Source: Histidinibacterium aquaticum (lineage in GTDB: Bacteria; Pseudomonadota; Alphaproteobacteria; Rhodobacterales; Rhodobacteraceae). Taken from it: DNA of 64,000 nucleotides. Both the position numbers and the translations under genes were made by a program. A model generated the notes under the pieces. That model made no database searches. It had not been told where the DNA came from and was given only the letters and a program-made list of their open reading frames with translations. Below, in pieces: positions 45,944 to 54,448 of this stretch (the first letter of the stretch is position 1; every line of letters starts with the position of its first letter). The DNA lies in NCBI RefSeq assembly GCF_008710275.1, contig NZ_VYQE01000003.1:496001-560000 (forward strand), written 5' to 3'.

Positions 45944-46396
45944 CTACTTCGGGTAGACCGCGATCATCTCCAGTTCGATCCGCGCGCCCGGCGTGGACAG
46001 CTGGTTGATGCAGAGCGCCGTGCTCGCCGGGGTCCAGTCGCCGAAATACTCCTTCAGCGCGAAGGTCATCTCCTCGAGGTCGCGCATGTCGGTCAGGTAC
46101 TTGTTGACCTTGATGATGTCCGTCCAGGTCAGCCCCTCGTGGTCGAGGATGTCCTTGATGTTCTTCATCGCGAGGTGGACCTGCTTGCGGATGTCCGTCG
46201 GATGATCGTGCTCGGAAAAGTCATGCGGGTGCTTGTGGTAGAGCTTCGCCGGCGTCGCCCCCGAAATGAAGAGCATGTCCGACCCCGCCGTCACCCGCAT
46301 CGCGGGGGCGTAGGGCATATCCGAGATCCGGTCGGGCTCGGTCTGGATTTCCCCGATGGCTGGATTGGTGGGCGAGGTCCTGTACGGCTCAGTCAT
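45944..46396 (-). CDS. Rid-family (RidA-like) protein, probably noncanonical
   Basis: 150 residues, one YjgF/YER057c/UK114 domain. The N-terminus (AMRVTAGSDMLFISGATPAKLYHKHP) and middle (VHLAMKNIKDILDHEGLTWTDIIKVNKYLTDMRD) fit the family. The catalytic arginine of canonical RidA, which sits in the VEVARL segment near the C-terminus, corresponds by eye to Gln in LCINQLSTPG, so this probably belongs to a Rid group lacking 2-aminoacrylate deaminase activity. Last gene of the TRAP operon (29 bases after the permease). It may process the transported compound. Confidence 0.82.
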   Translation of the reverse strand: MTEPYRTSPTNPAIGEIQTEPDRISDMPYAPAMRVTAGSDMLFISGATPAKLYHKHPHDFSEHDHPTDIRKQVHLAMKNIKDILDHEGLTWTDIIKVNKYLTDMRDLEEMTFALKEYFGDWTPASTALCINQLSTPGARIELEMIAVYPK

Positions 46397-46425: not shown

Positions 46426-48372
46426 CTAGAGCAGGGCGAGGCTGATGGCCGGGAAGGCCATGAGGATCAGCACGACCGCCAGCATGGTCAGCACGAAGGG
46501 CGCGGCCCCCTTGAAGATGTCCCCGAGTGTCGCGGTACCGGGCGGCAGCGTCCCCTTCACCACGTAGACGGCCAGTCCGAATGGCGGCGTCAGCAGGCCG
46601 ATCTCGACCGCGACGACCGTCACGATGCCGAACCAGACGAGGTCGCCTCCGAGCGACTGGACGATGGGCAGCATCAGCGGCAGCAGCACCAGCATGATCG
46701 ACACGGAGTCGAGGATCATGCCGAGCAGCACGACGATCACGAGGTAGAGCAGCAGGAAGGCCATCATCCCCAGTTCCGCCGCGATCACCCAGTCGGTGAT
46801 GCTCTGAGGGATGGCGCTGAGTGTCAGCATCCGGCTGTAGAGGTTGGCCGCCACGACAAGGAAGAGGATCGAGCCGGAGATCTCGGCGGTCTCCAGCAGG
46901 ATGGTCCGGAGGCGCTGCAGGCTCAGGCTCCGCCGTACGAGAGCGATGATGAAGGCCCCCGCCGCACCGACCGCGCCGGATTCCGTCGGCGTGAAGAAGC
47001 CGCCGTAGATGCCCCCCAGCACGAGCGCCACCAGCAGGACGATGGGCAGCAGCCGCCGGGCCACTTCGCCCAGCGTGACGGATTCCATGTCCTCGACCGG
47101 CATCGAGTTACCGACGAAATCTGGCGCGAACCATGACAGGCCGAGGACAAGCAGCGCGAAGGCCGAGGCGAGCAGCAGCCCGGGCAGGATCGCCGCGGTG
47201 AAGAGCGCCCCGATGGAGACCTCGGCAATCAGTCCGAAGATCAGCAGCAGGATGCTCGGCGGGATGAGCATGCCGAGCACCGAGGATCCCGCGACGACGC
47301 CGACCGCGAAGCGGCTCGTGTAGCCATTGGAGATCATCGGCGGCGCGGCCACGCGGGTGAAGACCGTCGCCGAGGCGATGGTGCTTCCGGTGATCGCCGC
47401 GAAGATTCCGTTCGCGAAGACAGTGGCGATCCCTAGCCCGCCCCGGATTCGTCGCAGAAGACGTGCGAGCACGGAGAAGGCATCGCGCCCCACGTCGGCC
47501 ACCTCGATGAAGAGGCCCATGAGAACGAAGAGCGGAATGACCGCGAAGGCGTAGGAATTGATCGACCCGGTCGTCGCGATGGCGAGGCTCCCCTCCGCCA
47601 CGGCGGCGGTACCCCTGATCATCCAGATCCCGAGGAATGACAGTACGATCAGGGCCGAGGCCAGGTGCATGCCCGACAGGACGAGGGCGAGCATCCCGAT
47701 GATCGAGAAGATACCGACGTCGACCCGGGACAGGTCTCCGGTCACGAGGTAGACGAGGCCCGCTCCGCAGACGACGAGGAACACGACGACGAGGGCGAAG
47801 ACCGTCGAGCCGTCGCGGTCGGTGGCGAGCGCCGAGCGGAAGTCGCGCGCCTCCTGCAGCGTCATCAGCGCGAACTGGAGCGCTGCAAGGACGGCGCCCA
47901 CGAGGATGCCCGTCGTGAAGGGCCAGACCGGCGCGGTGAAGGCCCCGATGGCGCCGAAGAACTCCGCCTCCTCGATCTGGTCGAGGAGCCGGGGCCAGAC
48001 GGTCTGCGTGATCTTGGCGAAGACGACGACGCCCACGGCGTTGAAGACCAGGTTGAGGAGCGCCCCGCCCCGGGGCGAGCGCGGCTCCAGCCTTTGCAGC
48101 AGGAAGTCGGCCCTCAGGAAACGGCCCGTCCGGATGCAGTAGGGCAGCGCCAGGAAAACGGTGGCGGGAACGGAGAACGAGACAACCTCCGCCACGCCGG
48201 CGATCGGTGAGTTCGCGAAGGCGCGCGACACCACGTCGGTGCAGACGAGCACCATGACGACGAAGATCCAGACTGAGCTGACCGTGGCGGCCAGCGCCGA
48301 GAGCCACTCGATCACTGTGCCCGGCGTGAAACGGCGGCCCGGGCCGGCCGCGGCAAGACTGTCTTGGTCCAA
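46426..48372 (-). CDS. TRAP transporter fused permease (DctQ-DctM)
   Basis: 648 residues. The N-terminal ~190 form the small four-helix DctQ unit (EWLSALAATVSSVWIFVVMVLVCTDVVSRAF, LPYCIRTGRFLRADFLL), the rest the large DctM unit of about 12 helices (GILVGAVLAAL..., GMHLASALIVLSFLGIWMIRG, GVVAGSSVLGMLIPPSILLLIFG, GGIYGGFFTPTESGAVGAAGAF, MILDSVSIMLVLLPLMLPI). The best start is a TTG at 48372 with AAAGGA upstream; no ATG is in range. Uses the Na+ gradient with the binding protein encoded 72 bases upstream. Confidence 0.9.
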   Translation of the reverse strand: MDQDSLAAAGPGRRFTPGTVIEWLSALAATVSSVWIFVVMVLVCTDVVSRAFANSPIAGVAEVVSFSVPATVFLALPYCIRTGRFLRADFLLQRLEPRSPRGGALLNLVFNAVGVVVFAKITQTVWPRLLDQIEEAEFFGAIGAFTAPVWPFTTGILVGAVLAALQFALMTLQEARDFRSALATDRDGSTVFALVVVFLVVCGAGLVYLVTGDLSRVDVGIFSIIGMLALVLSGMHLASALIVLSFLGIWMIRGTAAVAEGSLAIATTGSINSYAFAVIPLFVLMGLFIEVADVGRDAFSVLARLLRRIRGGLGIATVFANGIFAAITGSTIASATVFTRVAAPPMISNGYTSRFAVGVVAGSSVLGMLIPPSILLLIFGLIAEVSIGALFTAAILPGLLLASAFALLVLGLSWFAPDFVGNSMPVEDMESVTLGEVARRLLPIVLLVALVLGGIYGGFFTPTESGAVGAAGAFIIALVRRSLSLQRLRTILLETAEISGSILFLVVAANLYSRMLTLSAIPQSITDWVIAAELGMMAFLLLYLVIVVLLGMILDSVSIMLVLLPLMLPIVQSLGGDLVWFGIVTVVAVEIGLLTPPFGLAVYVVKGTLPPGTATLGDIFKGAAPFVLTMLAVVLILMAFPAISLALL

Positions 48373-48393
48373 GGAAAACGTCCTTTGAGGGCA

Positions 48394-48413
48394 CGAGGCG
48401 ATCAGACGCCTCG
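48394..48413 (-). terminator. intercistronic hairpin after the TRAP binding-protein gene
   Basis: CGAGGCG (48394-48400) pairs with CGCCTCG (48407-48413) with a six-base loop, 32 bases after the binding-protein stop and 22 before the fused permease start. Same placement as the hairpins after the other two binding-protein genes in this window. Confidence 0.5.
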
Positions 48414-48444
48414 CGCCCGTTGCACTAGGTCCGATGCGGCAGGG

Positions 48445-49503
48445 TCATTCCGACCAGTCGCGCATGGGCTCCGCGCCCTTCTCTTCCATCATGCTCATGT
48501 AGGTGCTCATGATTTCCTCACCGGGCAGCCCGTCCGCCGCGACGGTGGCGACCCACTCCTCGCCGAGATCGGGGAGACCCTCGACCCAGGCCGTGCGCTC
48601 TTCTTCCGGCAGCCGCGTGACGGTCGCGCCGTCGGCTTCCATCTGCTCCACGATCTGGTCGCTGGTCTCCTTCACCAGCTGGGCGTGGCCCATGCTGTAC
48701 TCGCGGCCGAGTTCCATGAGCACGGTCTGCACGTCCTCCGGGAAGCGCTCCCAGCTGTCGGCGTTCACAGCGAGGCCACCGATGGTCGTCACGCCGGTGT
48801 CGACGAGCGTCACGTACGGCGCGACCTCGTGGAGCCGCAGCGGGTAGGCGCCGGTCGGAATGATGATCGTCCCCTCGGCGACCCCGGTCTGGATCGTCTG
48901 GTACATGGTCGGAAGACCGCCCGCGACCGGGACGGCCCCGGTGCCGCCGAGCCAGGGCCCGAGCGCCGGCGCGCCGACGATGGTCCGGCCATCGAGGTCC
49001 GCGAGGCTCTCGACCGGGAAGGTCGTAAGCAGGTGGTAGGTGTCGTTCACCGAGGCCCCGAGGAAGACGAGGTTGTGCGAAGTCCACTCCTCCTGCATCT
49101 CGGGGATCGTATCGTTCATCTCGTTCAGCACTTCGACGGCGACCACGGGATCGCTGGTGACGAAGGGCGTGGAGAACATGATGTTCTGCAGCGGCATCTT
49201 CGAGCCTTCCCAGAGAGCGCCGACCCAGCCCATGTCGGTCAGGCCTTCCTCGACCGCCTCGAGCGTCTCGTTGAAGTCATAGAGCGAGCCGCCGAAGGCC
49301 TCCGTCCACTCGATGCGGTAGTCCGAGCCCATCTCCTCGAGCCGGGCATTCGCGGGTTCCACAACGTAGGTCTGCATGCTGCCGACCCACGGCACCGAGG
49401 TCGGGTGGCTGGAGGAAATGGTGATCGGGACCATCTCCTGAGCGAGACCGGCCGAGGGCAGCGCGAAGGCTGCGAGGGCGATGCTTTTAAGTGTGACGTT
49501 CAT
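48445..49503 (-). CDS. TRAP transporter periplasmic solute-binding protein (DctP type)
   Basis: 352 residues with a signal peptide (MNVTLKSIALAAFALPSAGLA, cleavage before Q). DctP-type features: the N-terminal strand PITISSSHPTSVPWV, FGGSLYDFNETLEAVEEGLTDMGWVG (~72-97), LADLDGRTIVGAPALGPWLGGTGAVPV and PTMYQTIQTGVAEGTIIIPTGAYPLRLHEVAPYVT. Solute unknown; the usual carboxylate-binding arginine is not obvious by eye. AGGAGAG precedes the ATG. The operator-like GCAATCGTTTGC is 38 bases upstream of the start. Confidence 0.92.
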   Translation of the reverse strand: MNVTLKSIALAAFALPSAGLAQEMVPITISSSHPTSVPWVGSMQTYVVEPANARLEEMGSDYRIEWTEAFGGSLYDFNETLEAVEEGLTDMGWVGALWEGSKMPLQNIMFSTPFVTSDPVVAVEVLNEMNDTIPEMQEEWTSHNLVFLGASVNDTYHLLTTFPVESLADLDGRTIVGAPALGPWLGGTGAVPVAGGLPTMYQTIQTGVAEGTIIIPTGAYPLRLHEVAPYVTLVDTGVTTIGGLAVNADSWERFPEDVQTVLMELGREYSMGHAQLVKETSDQIVEQMEADGATVTRLPEEERTAWVEGLPDLGEEWVATVAADGLPGEEIMSTYMSMMEEKGAEPMRDWSE

Positions 49504-49540
49504 ATCAGGCTCTCCTACTGTTGAACTCTGTCAGGTGGCT

Positions 49541-49552
49541 GCAATCGTTTGC
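49541..49552. promoter_or_regulatory. LacI-like operator upstream of the TRAP operon
   Basis: The 12-mer GCAATCGTTTGC, 38 bases before the TRAP binding-protein ATG. The half-sites GCAATC and GTTTGC are near-symmetric around a central CG, the form of LacI-family operators. The same 12-mer occurs upstream of the adjacent ABC operon at 53490-53501 and, as its complement with one change, at 53459-53470. A six-base-stem hairpin (GCCGTT 49574, AACGGC 49587) upstream may be the terminator of the ABC operon. Confidence 0.6.
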
Positions 49553-49698
49553 GGCCGCCAAGCGATGCGAGGGGCCGTTCCTGAAAAACGGCTCGATCCG
49601 GGGACCTCTGCCTGCGGTTTCGGCGCCTTGCCCACGAAACGGCAGCCTGCCGTCTTCCGGCGCCGCACGGCCTCGGCGCCGTCCGCCGCCCACCCGCG

Positions 49699-50586
49699 TC
49701 ATTTCGACGACGCCGCTTCGGTCTCGGGCGACTCATGGCCCCCGAACTTCGCCGCCCATCGCCGGGCTCGGGCGCGCGAAACAACCGACCGGCGCCCTTC
49801 GCGCCGCCAGAAGACGACGCGGTCGTCGAGAAATTCCATCGCGTAGAACAGCAGCAGTCCGATGAGGGTCATGCTCAGCAGCGTCGCGATGGAGGATCCC
49901 ATGTCGAGCTGGAAGGAGAAGCGGTTCATCAGAACGCCGACCCCGGCGGTGGCCTGCGCGAACTCCGCCACCACCGCCCCGATCAGCGCGGTCGTCAGGC
50001 CGATCTTCAGACCGGCGAAGACCAGCGGCAGCGAGGCCGGGACCCGGAGCTTCAGGAAGGCCTGCCGATCGCTCGCCCCGAGCGACCGGAACATCTCCTC
50101 GCTGTCCCGGTCGACCTGCAGCAGGCCGGTCAGGGCGTTCACGAAGATCGGGAAGAACGAGATGATCGCGGCCAGCGCCACCTTCGAGCCCATGCCGTAG
50201 CCGAACCAGGCGATGACCACGGGCGTCAGCGCGATGCCGGGAGTCACGTTGAGGACGATGGCATAGGGCGAGACGTAGCGCTTGAAGGTCTCCGAGAGCG
50301 CAGAGCAGACGGCCAGGGTAATCGCGACCGCAGCCCCGATGGCAAAGCCCGCGACCGTCTCGGTCAGGGTGATCAGGAAGTGGGGGTAGATCGTGCCGTC
50401 CAGCACGTAGAGCTCCCAGATCGACGCGATGATCTCGCTCGGCGGCGGCACCAGGATCGACGTGATGAAGCCGGTCGACACGGCCAGTTCCCAGACGGGC
50501 AGCAGGGCCAGAAGCAGCAGGAGGTGGGGAAGCGCGCGAAGGGCCCAGTAGGCCAGCGCGTAGCTCGAGGATCGCCGGTCGCTCAT
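49699..50586 (-). CDS. ABC transporter permease (SsuC/nitrate-sulfonate-bicarbonate type)
   Basis: 295 residues, six helices of the BPD transporter 1 class: LLLALLPVWELAVSTGFI, FLITLTETVAGFAIGAAVAI, VIAWFGYGMGSKVALAAIISFFPIFVNALTG with the coupling EEMFRSLGASDRQAFLKLRVPASLPLVFAGLKIG. The start at 50586 (MSDRRSSSYAL) overlaps the upstream permease by ATGA; a longer frame has an implausible N-terminus. Carries a C-terminal Arg/Ser-rich tail of ~35 residues. Second permease of a heteromeric pair. Confidence 0.9.
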   Translation of the reverse strand: MSDRRSSSYALAYWALRALPHLLLLLALLPVWELAVSTGFITSILVPPPSEIIASIWELYVLDGTIYPHFLITLTETVAGFAIGAAVAITLAVCSALSETFKRYVSPYAIVLNVTPGIALTPVVIAWFGYGMGSKVALAAIISFFPIFVNALTGLLQVDRDSEEMFRSLGASDRQAFLKLRVPASLPLVFAGLKIGLTTALIGAVVAEFAQATAGVGVLMNRFSFQLDMGSSIATLLSMTLIGLLLFYAMEFLDDRVVFWRREGRRSVVSRARARRWAAKFGGHESPETEAASSK

Positions 50587-51440
50587 GCGAGGCCCTCCAT
50601 CCGTTTGCGCCGCCGCGCGCCCACACGCTGGAGCCCCTCTTCCGAGTTCCAGAAGGCGATCCGGCGGTCGAGCCACTCCATGAACCGGAAGATCAGGAAG
50701 CCCAGGATCGTCAGCGTGAAGATGCAGGCGAAGGACGACGCCATGTTGAGGTTGCGCGTGTAGGTCATGATGAGCGCCCCGAGACCCTGGTCGCGCTGGA
50801 TGAACTCCGCCACGAGCGCCCCCGACAGGGCCGAGGTCATCGCCAGCCTCTCGCCGGCCATGATCACCGGCAGAGCATCGGGCAGCACCAGCTTGCGCAT
50901 CAGTTGCAGCTTCGAGGCTCCGAGCGACCGGAACAGCTCGAGCCGCTGCTCGTCCACGTTCACGACGCCCGACAGCGTGTTGATGAAAGGGGGGAAGAAG
51001 CAGACCAGCATGATGATCGCGATCTTCGAGGATGCGCCGAAGCCCAGGGCCGCGATCAGCAGCGGCGCCACCGCGATCCGCGGCGTCGCCTCCAGCACGA
51101 TGACGTAGGGCTTCACGAAGCGCCTCACCATTCCGTTCAGCCCGACGAGCGCACCCAGCGAGACGCCGAGGACCGAGCCCGCGACGAAACCCGACAGGAC
51201 GAGCGAGGCGGTCGAGTAGATCTCGGGCCAGATGTTTCCGTTCTCGATGTAGATCAGCCAGAACGAGCGCAGGATGTTCGAGGGCCGCGGGTAGAACAGC
51301 GGATCGAGCCAGCCCATCCGGCTGCCCAGCTCCCAGAGCCCCACGATGGTGAGGAAGATGGCCGCGTGGTTGAGAGCCCGGCGCTGCTGCAGGCCGAGAC
51401 CGCTGCGACGGTCGCCGCGATCTGCGTCCGCCGCGGGCAT
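50583..51440 (-). CDS. ABC transporter permease (SsuC type)
   Basis: 285 residues with six helices: AAIFLTIVGLWELGSRMGW, YSTASLVLSGFVAGSVLGVSLGALVG, LLIAALGFGASSKIAIIMLVCFFPPFINTLSGVV and the EAA loop LELFRSLGASKLQLMRKLVLPDALPVIMAGERLAMTSALSGALVAEF. A basic stretch (RRRKRMEGLA) ends the protein. The ATG overlaps the ATPase stop (TGATG). Together with the other permease it forms the membrane channel. Confidence 0.9.
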   Translation of the reverse strand: MPAADADRGDRRSGLGLQQRRALNHAAIFLTIVGLWELGSRMGWLDPLFYPRPSNILRSFWLIYIENGNIWPEIYSTASLVLSGFVAGSVLGVSLGALVGLNGMVRRFVKPYVIVLEATPRIAVAPLLIAALGFGASSKIAIIMLVCFFPPFINTLSGVVNVDEQRLELFRSLGASKLQLMRKLVLPDALPVIMAGERLAMTSALSGALVAEFIQRDQGLGALIMTYTRNLNMASSFACIFTLTILGFLIFRFMEWLDRRIAFWNSEEGLQRVGARRRKRMEGLA

Positions 51441-52261
51441 CAGTGATCCTCCCCGAGGATGTCGCGCACCTCGGCCACCACCTCGTTGAACTCCGGCGAT
51501 GTCTGTAGCGAAGGCGAACGCGGACGCTCGAAGGGCACCTCGACGATGGAGGCGATCCGCCCGGGCCGCGGGGTCATCACGAAGACCTGGTCGGCCAGGA
51601 AGATCGCCTCGGCGATGTTGTGCGTGACGAAGAGAGTGGTGGCGCCGACCTCGGCGACGATGCGCATGAGCTCGACGTTGAGCCTCTCGCGCGTGAACTC
51701 GTCGAGAGCGCCGAAGGGCTCGTCCAGAAGGAGCACGTCGGCCCCGGTCTGCAGCAGCCGCGCGAGCGCGACCCGCTGCTGCATGCCGCCAGAGAGCTGT
51801 GTCGGAAAGGAAAAGCGGAAGTCGTGAAGACCGACCATTCGCAGCAGTTCAGCCGCGTTGCGCCGATCCTCCTTCGTCAGGCTCCGCTTGATCTCGGTCG
51901 GCAGCAGGACGTTCTCGATCGCCGTCCGCCATTCCAGCAGCGTCGCACGCTGGAACATCATCCCGACGTCGGTTCGCGGCGCGTCGACCGGCTTGCCGTG
52001 GACCTTGAGATGCCCGGACGACTTGTCGATGAGCCCGGCGATCAGGCGAAGCAGCGTCGACTTTCCGCACCCCGAGGGCCCCACGAGCGAGACGAAGGAG
52101 CCCGGCGCGATATCGAAACTCGCGCCTTCGAGCGCGACGACAGTGCCGTCCGCGAAGGTCTTGCTCAGTCCGCGGGCGGCGACCACGGCATCTTTCGCGC
52201 CGGCATCGGCCGCCTGGTCCGCGGTATCGGCCTGCCCGGAATTCTGGGTCGGCATGTTCAT
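51440..52261 (-). CDS. ABC transporter ATP-binding protein (SsuB/TauB type)
   Basis: 273 residues. Walker A LVGPSGCGKSTLLRLIAGL (~60-78), MFQRATLLEWRTAIENVLLP, signature LSGGMQQRVALARLL, Walker B VLLLDEPFGALDEFTRE and H-loop LFVTHNIAEAIFLADQVFVMTPRPGRI. The TLLEWRT sequence after the Q-loop is the usual sulfonate/nitrate/pyrimidine-precursor importer type. The ATG at 52261 follows GGAG by five bases. 131 bases, including a strong hairpin, separate it from the binding-protein gene upstream. Confidence 0.92.
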   Translation of the reverse strand: MNMPTQNSGQADTADQAADAGAKDAVVAARGLSKTFADGTVVALEGASFDIAPGSFVSLVGPSGCGKSTLLRLIAGLIDKSSGHLKVHGKPVDAPRTDVGMMFQRATLLEWRTAIENVLLPTEIKRSLTKEDRRNAAELLRMVGLHDFRFSFPTQLSGGMQQRVALARLLQTGADVLLLDEPFGALDEFTRERLNVELMRIVAEVGATTLFVTHNIAEAIFLADQVFVMTPRPGRIASIVEVPFERPRSPSLQTSPEFNEVVAEVRDILGEDH

Positions 52262-52343
52262 TATTCTCCGCTCCGGCCTCGGTCTGACCTGTTCTTGTTC
52301 AGTCCGGCCGGACACGCGCGGTCACGGCCGGACTGAGGGGCCG

Positions 52344-52385
52344 GCGGCGGGGCGGACGGCCGGGAGGGACCGCCCGCCCCGCCGC
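52344..52385 (-). terminator. intercistronic hairpin after the ABC binding-protein gene
   Basis: A 12-bp perfect stem: GCGGCGGGGCGG (52344-52355) with CCGCCCCGCCGC (52374-52385), loop of 18 bases. It begins 7 bases after the binding-protein stop at 52393 and lies before the ATPase start at 52261. Likely raises binding-protein yield relative to the downstream genes by partial termination or by protecting the upstream message. Confidence 0.6.
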
Positions 52386-52392
52386 TGTCGGC

Positions 52393-53424
52393 TTACATGT
52401 TCTCGTCGGCCCAGGCCTGAAGCTCATCGGCGACCTCGTCCTTCGACCAGTCGTTGGCCGGCCCGACGAAGCTGTCGTCCAGGAAGGTGTCGACGGGCAC
52501 GACCTCGTCCATCGCGCCGATGGCGACGAGGCGTTCCTGCAGGGATTCCCAGACATCCGGCTGAAGCCCGCCGAATTGCTCTGTCTGCGGCAGTGTCACG
52601 TCGATGGCAGCGGCGAGGAAGTTCTGTCCGAACTCCTCGTTCTCCCATTCGGCCGGAACGGCCTGGCGCGAGATCTCGGCCAGCGCCTCCTCGTCGAGCT
52701 CACCAACGTAGGCGCCCTTCGACCAGGCGCGCAGGAAGCCCTCGACGGGTCCGCGCAGCTCGTCCATCCGCTCCTCGCTGATGACGAAGGAGCCGGCGGG
52801 GTTCAGCATGACCTCCTCTGGCGTGATCATCCGCACGTCGATGCCGTTGGCCTGAAGCGCCAGCCAGTCGGACGAGGCCCCCGAGATCGCCGAGACCGTC
52901 TGGTCGCGGAACGCCGCGGCGAGCGTCGGGCCGCCTTCGCCCACGACCACGGTCTCGACGTCGTCGAGCGACATGTCGACGGCGTAGAGCGCCTGGGCCA
53001 GGAAAGCCCGGTCGCGGTCGGTGACCAGTCCGACGGTGGTGCCGGCCAGTTCCTCGATGCTCTGCACGTCGCTGTCGGCCGAGACGGCGATGCCTTCGGG
53101 GGCGCGCTGGTTGGCCTCGTAGATCACCTGGATCCCGGTGCCTGCGCCGACGGCCGAGAGCGTCTCGCTCGCGTCGAGGATGGCGAGATCGGCCTGCCCG
53201 TTCTGGACGAAGGCGACATAGGGGATCGAGGTCTCGGACGGCAGCAGGTTCACCTCGACGCCTTCCTCCTCGAAGTAGCCGAGCGCCTCGCCCGCGATCA
53301 GCGGATAGAAGATCGTGGAGCGCGGAAGCGGGTTGATCACGTTGATCGTCGTCAGCTCCTGGGCCCAGCCTGCGGCGGGCAGGCTCATGGCCAGGACGAC
53401 GGTCATATTGCGGAATGTCTTCAT
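52393..53424 (-). CDS. ABC transporter substrate-binding protein (NMT1/SsuA-like)
   Basis: 343 residues, with signal peptide MKTFRNMTVVLAMSLPAAGWA. Mature N-terminus QELTTINVINPLPRSTIFYPLIAGEALGYFEEEGVEVNLLPSE, then NGQADLAILDASETLSAVGAG, IEELAGTTVGLVTDRDRAFLAQALYAVDMSLDDVETVVVGEGG, the family pattern of binding proteins for nitrate, sulfonate or thiamine-precursor pyrimidines. Substrate cannot be told. The start at 53424 gives a clean signal peptide. First gene of the four-gene operon; two operator-like 12-mers lie 35-77 bases upstream. Confidence 0.9.
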   Translation of the reverse strand: MKTFRNMTVVLAMSLPAAGWAQELTTINVINPLPRSTIFYPLIAGEALGYFEEEGVEVNLLPSETSIPYVAFVQNGQADLAILDASETLSAVGAGTGIQVIYEANQRAPEGIAVSADSDVQSIEELAGTTVGLVTDRDRAFLAQALYAVDMSLDDVETVVVGEGGPTLAAAFRDQTVSAISGASSDWLALQANGIDVRMITPEEVMLNPAGSFVISEERMDELRGPVEGFLRAWSKGAYVGELDEEALAEISRQAVPAEWENEEFGQNFLAAAIDVTLPQTEQFGGLQPDVWESLQERLVAIGAMDEVVPVDTFLDDSFVGPANDWSKDEVADELQAWADENM

Positions 53425-53458
53425 CGTGTCTCCTCCGAGAGGGGATGCAGGGCGACGG

Positions 53459-53501
53459 ACAAACGATTGCACCCCTCACGAGACGTGTAGCAATCGTTTG
53501 C
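53459..53501. promoter_or_regulatory. paired LacI-like operators upstream of the ABC operon
   Basis: CAAACGATTGC (53460-53470) and its exact complement GCAATCGTTTG (53490-53500) form an 11-bp inverted repeat with a 19-base spacer; centres are 30 bases apart, about three DNA turns, suiting two dimers. The right copy extends to the full 12-mer found upstream of the TRAP operon. On the minus strand a TTGACG -35-like hexamer (53537-53532) lies upstream, with a loose -10 region near 53514, putting the right operator at the transcription start, as expected for a repressor. Confidence 0.6.
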
Positions 53502-53770
53502 ATGTCGAGCATGGCAGCCAATTTAGCTTAACGTCAAGATAAATGGCCGACTGCCTTAAAGTCTTTGAAAGACGAGGGGTTATGACGAAATCGAAGGCGA
53601 CACCGATTCGTCTTCGGGCCAAATGATCGCTTCCGGACGGTCAGCTGCTCGACCGACCGGGCGCATCAGATAGGCGGCGGAGGGTACGGTCAAAACAGAC
53701 GTCCGGGCGGAAGTGACCGGCACTTTCGGGCCGCGCAGCGACTGCCGGTCCATGCGCTCATCGCATCTTC
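53502..53770. other. intergenic region upstream of the ABC operon
   Basis: Contains the probable promoter described for the ABC operon and an imperfect dyad CTTAACGTCAAG (53527-53538) overlapping its -35 part. A mini-ORF of 14 codons (53582-53626, MTKSKATPIRLRAK) has GAGGGG just upstream; it may be a leader peptide or the 5' remnant of a lost gene. From 53627 to 53770 I see no ORF, repeat or RNA I can support. Confidence 0.4.
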
Positions 53771-54448
53771 TTACGGTCGCTCGTAATCGAGAAGAACCTC
53801 GCCTCGGGCAATCTGACCAATGAAGGCATAAGGATCCTTGCGGTCCTGTAGGTGAAGCCAGGCCCGGTGAGCGAAGAGCTCAGGCGCCATCAACAACATG
53901 ACTTCGCTCAGCATGTCGCGGGAGATCGGCTCATCACCCGGCTTGGCCTCCTCGAAGGCGATCCGGTCGACCTCTGGCAGGAACCAGACCTGCATCGTGT
54001 AGGCGATGTATTCCTGCCCAACCGGGCAGGCCTCGAAAGGACACGGCAACGAGTCGAGCGCGGCATGGGTCATTTCGTGGCGGATCACGCTCTCGAAGAA
54101 GGCGTCGTCAGAGACCGTGGCGAAGGCGGACGCTTCACCTCTCTCTCGTAGAACCTCGTAGGCCGCGGGGGCGAGAATATCTATTCGGCCGGTGCCGCAG
54201 TGGTAGACGCCCAGGCAGTGATCTTCGAGTTCGGGGAGCACGGAAATCGTGACCGGCGCCGGAACGGAAAGATCGAAGCTCTTCAGCTGCTCCGTCGCGC
54301 GCGCCGCGTGGGCGCAGATGGTTTCCGCATCGTCCCCAGCTCCTTCGGTGAAGACACGTCCGCCCGGGCAGGCGACGGGCTCCGCCGCCAATACGTCCAT
54401 CGCCGAGATCAGCGCTGTCGCCGCTGCAAGACGTGAAATGGCGTGCAT
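53771..54448 (-). CDS. putative secreted zinc-metallopeptidase-like protein (DUF6639-like)
   Basis: 225 residues with a signal peptide (MHAISRLAAATALISAMDVLA). Conserved-looking features are several cysteines (ACPGGRVFTEG, DHCLGVYHCGTGRID, LPCPFEACPVGQEY) and an HEXXH zinc motif, HEMTH (~114-118, in FESVIRHEMTHAAL). The layout matches a Rhodobacteraceae protein group I recall as DUF6639. Peptidase activity is plausible but not proven; the third zinc ligand may be Glu in QEYIAY. It stands alone, with the BCCT gene upstream on the same strand. Confidence 0.65.
   Translation of the reverse strand: MHAISRLAAATALISAMDVLAAEPVACPGGRVFTEGAGDDAETICAHAARATEQLKSFDLSVPAPVTISVLPELEDHCLGVYHCGTGRIDILAPAAYEVLRERGEASAFATVSDDAFFESVIRHEMTHAALDSLPCPFEACPVGQEYIAYTMQVWFLPEVDRIAFEEAKPGDEPISRDMLSEVMLLMAPELFAHRAWLHLQDRKDPYAFIGQIARGEVLLDYERP

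Follow-up and report, generated by a model that had tools for sequence, protein, structure and literature searches.

In the catalogue of Ravcheev et al. (2014, PMC4052901), local LacI regulons share an even palindrome with a central CG, sites 30 to 140 bp upstream of gene starts, and an autoregulated regulator that represses catabolic and transport genes. A system of the same kind appears to reach into a window of 64,000 nucleotides of the Histidinibacterium aquaticum genome (the whole stretch analyzed, contig C5, positions 496001 to 560000). An earlier note on this window had proposed that a LacI-like operator links two of its operons, and the proposal is strongly supported. A candidate regulator gene was located outside the window, and the same operator stands beside its orthologs in dozens of genomes. 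With a probability of about 0.87, the window sites are operators of one candidate LacI repressor, encoded at C6:130931-131956, that would control a scattered regulon of importers and catabolic enzymes.

Both operons lie on the minus strand, and their gene content is as previously described: a Rid-family protein, a fused TRAP permease and DctP in one, an SsuABC/NMT1-type ABC importer in the other (Table 1). The ABC operon resembles SsuABC/TauABC/NMT1-type importers in its NMT1 binding protein (Pfam), SsuC/TauC-like permeases, and SsuB/NtrCD-like ATPase; it differs in scoring below all equivalog cut-offs and in having two different permease genes. Elsewhere in the window (53771-54448), a predicted protein of 225 aa with a signal-like start had no Pfam or NCBIfam match.

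The operator is a near-palindrome of even length, with the half-sites GCAAWC and GWTTGC and a central CG, near the starts of its target genes. A central CG is typical of LacI-family sites, and the reading of the words as LacI-like holds. The 12-mer GCAATCGTTTGC was found where it had been reported, in exact form before each operon. Before the ABC operon, it is accompanied by GCAATCGTTTGT, an inverted copy with one mismatch on the minus strand. These two contain a perfect 11-bp inverted pair, CAAACGATTGC (53460-53470) and GCAATCGTTTG (53490-53500), with centers 30 bases apart as claimed; counted as 12-bp operators, the centers are 31 apart. Placement of the sites near a transcription start is only plausible, because a simple scan of positions 48300 to 53800 gave no sigma-70-type promoter match near them. 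Since the scan found no terminator-like site between the two operons and the TRAP operon follows the ABC operon in the same direction after only 195 bp, the operators might be real and yet only the ABC operon truly controlled. Most TRAP-Rid transcripts would then come from read-through, and the operator at 49541 would act as a minor internal site or roadblock. We consider this unlikely, given that the TRAP site is exact, stands in a normal operator position, and has counterparts in paralogous TRAP operons, which have operators of their own.

The words are rare. In the 3.9-Mb genome, pattern search found three exact copies of GCAATCGTTTGC, namely the two window sites and C6:153974, and all three stand upstream of genes; a second-order Markov model predicts 0.0014 copies per 64 kb and 0.085 per genome. 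With up to one mismatch, there were 23 strand-matches genome-wide, as opposed to 1 for the reversed control word. The general palindrome GCAAWCGWTTGC, in all its exact forms, occurred at nine places, whereas a second-order Markov model based on the window predicts about 0.18. The 12-mer is therefore not a common word unrelated to promoters. When two mismatches were allowed, it was no commoner than expected (6 matches in the window versus 3.6 in shuffles).

Table 1. Window genes and operators, and operators elsewhere in the genome (positions without a contig prefix are those of the window)
Feature	Position	Strand	Remark
Rid-family (PF01042) protein	45944-46396	-	Ser replaces RidA catalytic Arg
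Fused TRAP DctQ-DctM permease	46426-48372	-	
TRAP substrate-binding protein DctP	48445-49503	-	
LacI-type operator, GCAATCGTTTGC on +	49541-49552	-	37 bases upstream of dctP ATG (49503)
ABC permease B, SsuC/TauC-like	49699-50586	-	
ABC permease A, SsuC/TauC-like	50583-51440	-	
ABC ATP-binding subunit, SsuB/TauB/NtrCD-like	51440-52261	-	
ABC substrate-binding protein, PF09084 NMT1/SsuA-like	52393-53424	-	paralog in lacI cluster, C6:140329-141447
LacI-type operator, one mismatch, GCAATCGTTTGT	53459-53470	-	34 bases upstream of ABC binding-protein start
LacI-type operator, exact	53490-53501	-	31 bp center to center from 53459-53470
Operator before lacI itself, ACAAACGTTTGC	C6:132014		
Operators at head of C6 cluster	C6:150362, 150416		
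Operator before divergent TSUP gene	C6:150577		
Operator before molybdenum-hydroxylase pair	C6:153974		exact GCAATCGTTTGC
Operator before amidohydrolase	C6:163473		
Operators before oligopeptide-type ABC operon	C4:762557, 762656		
Operator before second TRAP operon with amidohydrolase	C1:325714		
Exact palindrome before pntAB	C1:135154		

Across the genome, operators of this type precede importers of at least four classes, catabolic enzymes, and pntAB, and the window pair is therefore part of a wider regulon. The earlier note had concluded from the pair that a single substrate family enters by two routes. With so many importer classes under a common operator, this is plausible but too narrow; the TRAP and ABC importers of the window may instead carry different compounds of one pathway. 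A further exact palindrome, GCAATCGATTGC at C1:179896, apparently falls within a coding frame and counts against the proposed regulon.

The regulator had been said to lie outside the window, and indeed none of the 11 LacI-domain genes of the genome maps to it. The strong candidate, on another contig, has both expected domains, a LacI HTH (PF00356, 34.7 bits against a cut-off of 27) and a ligand domain resembling periplasmic binding proteins (PF13377, 138.6 bits). It is the last gene of a 20-kb co-directional catabolic and transport cluster running down from C6:150172. In order, this cluster encodes a 3-hydroxyisobutyrate-dehydrogenase-like reductase, a LIV-type ABC importer, a second NMT1-type ABC importer, an alpha/beta hydrolase, an M24 hydrolase, an acetoin-dehydrogenase-type E1/E2 set, and an aldehyde dehydrogenase. 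The full-length domain match likens the C6 LacI to RbsR/PurR/CcpA-type regulators, but its target genes differ and it reaches none of the NCBIfam LacI equivalog cut-offs (RbsR, PurR, etc.), all of which lie far above its scores; the best model, RbsR NF047341, gave 203.7 bits against a cut-off of 382. We take GCAAACGTTTGC to resemble PurR/RbsR operators. With 11 LacI genes present and a central CG shared by LacI motifs in general, a different paralog might bind the window sites. We rejected this as very improbable: the other ten have different HTH sequences and recognition helices and other or no clear CG-centered palindromes upstream, the C6 gene alone having the GCAA/TTGC palindrome there, and the exact window 12-mer recurs in the C6 cluster and beside C6-LacI orthologs in many genomes.

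Orthologs of the C6 LacI were present in 12 of the 198 genomes of the family (its own included), the closest in Histidinibacterium lentulum, of the window's own genus. Named relatives came from Rhodobacterales and Rhizobiales, with a few from Actinobacteria. Sixty-two lacI-ortholog loci of Rhodobacterales and Rhizobiales (1.13 Mb) contained 141 exact GCAAWCGWTTGC sites, as opposed to 0 to 2 for each of 11 permuted half-site controls. A site lay within 450 bp upstream of lacI in 56 of these loci, and in four of the six exceptions the contig ended within about 320 bp of the gene. The recognition helix, HVSTVSR, was invariant in 10 aligned orthologs. Paired sites were usually 54 to 57 bp apart; the 31-bp spacing of the window recurred before the amidohydrolase (AmidoH) ortholog in three Roseibium/Labrenzia loci, with the first site between TTGACC and an ATAAT-like element. 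Nine genomes with this LacI held 31 exact sites (control, 2), whereas 20 genomes without it held 17 (control, 12), which is background only. Regulator and motif are co-conserved across genomes, as is expected of a LacI regulon. Chance words or an unrelated repeat, which would suit the two-mismatch counts, can be dismissed in view of the exact and one-mismatch counts with their reversed and permuted controls, the clustering before genes, and this phylogenetic conservation. A contig filed as an Acidobacteria MAG carries an alphaproteobacterial-type lacI cluster with operators, through either mis-binning or transfer.

Sites before the Opp, HIBADH/LIV, molybdenum hydroxylase, and pntA genes recur in other genera, and Opp orthologs with sites adjoin lacI in several of them. 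The pntA ortholog with a site is that of Alexandriicola, where the pntAB palindrome is kept; the regulon may include the NADP transhydrogenase. In H. lentulum, the ortholog (81%) of the ABC binding protein of the window lies elsewhere in the genome yet retains an exact operator. There it stands alone (L079:8595-9728), with no permease genes; permeases of 78% identity lie elsewhere, in a GntR-family-linked operon. Relatives of the window ABC operon in LacI-lacking genomes adjoin a GntR-family gene instead.

TRAP orthologs with sites occur in Alexandriicola (G165) and HLUCCA08 (G080). Among the TRAP operons, it is the paralog at C1:325851, not the TRAP-Rid operon of the window, whose operators are conserved. 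Operators stand before window-type DctP homologs in just three relatives, G065, G165, and G080, whose LacI is the most similar (≥70% identity); no operator was found before >20 DctP homologs of other genomes or the C8 paralog of the same genome. Since the TRAP-Rid unit is not conserved, its membership in the regulon rests on one exact site. The C8 locus (C8:196001-212000), which carries this third window-type TRAP paralog, has transketolase-like and HIBADH-like genes and a GntR-like neighbor. The regulon region of HLUCCA08 contains a split galactarate/altronate-dehydratase-like pair, a CrtO-like FAD oxidoreductase, and a second M24-like hydrolase, it too between two operator-bearing operons.

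The Rid protein is noncanonical, as the earlier note had recognized: it reads PAST where relatives read PAR, at what we take to be the position of E. coli RidA Arg105, and it lacks the catalytic arginine of RidA-type imine deaminases. None of the other 197 genomes of the family searched gave a Rid match at an E value of ≤1e-30, and the TRAP-Rid combination is lineage-specific. For both reasons, the protein adds little to the substrate inference and is weak evidence about the substrate. A second Rid without the arginine, reading PAS, is encoded at C4:760111-760500 (L035:6111-6500; also L082:8670-9059), directly before an NMT1-type binding protein; the arrangement is kept in H. lentulum. Beside the C4 locus lie the Opp operon with its operators and a MarR-like gene in divergent orientation.

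We propose that the C6 LacI acts as a repressor whose dimer occupies GCAAWCGWTTGC just ahead of dctP in the TRAP-Rid operon, and likewise the two sites, 31 bp apart, that precede the gene for the ABC binding protein. The bound C6 LacI would block transcription until a pathway-derived inducer binds the repressor. Its regulon would include TRAP, SsuABC/NMT1-type ABC, LIV-type ABC, and Opp-type ABC importers. The catabolic set would comprise a C-C hydrolase of the 2,6-dihydroxypseudooxynicotine hydrolase type, an M24 hydrolase, an acetoin-dehydrogenase-type complex, an aldehyde dehydrogenase, a molybdenum hydroxylase, and an aromatic-decarboxylase-like amidohydrolase, together with a TSUP exporter.

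The relationships of these enzymes suggest that the substrates are aromatic or heteroaromatic compounds or their acids, not sugars. The alpha/beta hydrolase of the C6 cluster is closest to 2,6-dihydroxypseudooxynicotine hydrolase (2jbw; E = 2.4e-49), the amidohydrolase to gamma-resorcylate and 5-carboxyvanillate decarboxylases, and the molybdenum hydroxylase is of the XDH type. Rhizobial lacI clusters contain a catechol-type intradiol dioxygenase, a GST, and a beta-keto acid cleavage enzyme. Sulfonate chemistry, considered on account of the TSUP exporters and SsuA-like binding proteins, is a possible alternative, although the lacI-cluster proteins that were scanned included no enzyme family specific to sulfonates. 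Among the window importers, no ligand can be transferred to the ABC binding protein, as it has no PDB relative by sequence at an E value of ≤0.001. The nearest solved relatives of the window DctP are 4pgn and 4nap, which we take to be indole-acid binders. In carboxylate-binding TRAP proteins of the DctP/SiaP type, according to PMC4646407, a conserved arginine holds the substrate carboxylate. Sequence alignment alone placed DGRTIVGAP of the window DctP against QGMEIRGAG of 4pgn; at the position of the 4pgn arginine, the window protein and its close relatives have none.

What began as two sites is now a testable regulon in which a single regulator and its operator would connect several orphan importers with a multienzyme pathway. 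The pathway substrate can now be searched for with the whole regulon set, and shared regulation serves as a substrate clue for four transporter types and the arginine-less Rid. We found no description of this LacI regulon in the open-licence literature. A more ambitious reading is possible, at slightly under even odds: that a so far undescribed LacI repressor is widespread in Alphaproteobacteria and has an aromatic or N-heteroaromatic breakdown product as its signal. From scattered loci it would govern at least four classes of importer, an entire peripheral pathway, and the supply of NADPH through pntAB, and individual lineages would have recruited additional importers, TRAP-Rid among them.

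This is a conventional LacI regulon of a familiar type whose content is apparently undescribed. The word "aromatic" does not occur in the text of PMC4052901. Most characterized LacI regulators respond to sugars and govern carbohydrate genes, whereas the genes found here point to aromatic or heteroaromatic compounds: the C-C hydrolase, the aromatic-decarboxylase-like amidohydrolase, and the molybdenum hydroxylase in this genome and the intradiol dioxygenase in rhizobial relatives. In Alphaproteobacteria of marine and rhizosphere habitats, LacI-type control may thus cover aromatic-type catabolism as well as sugars.
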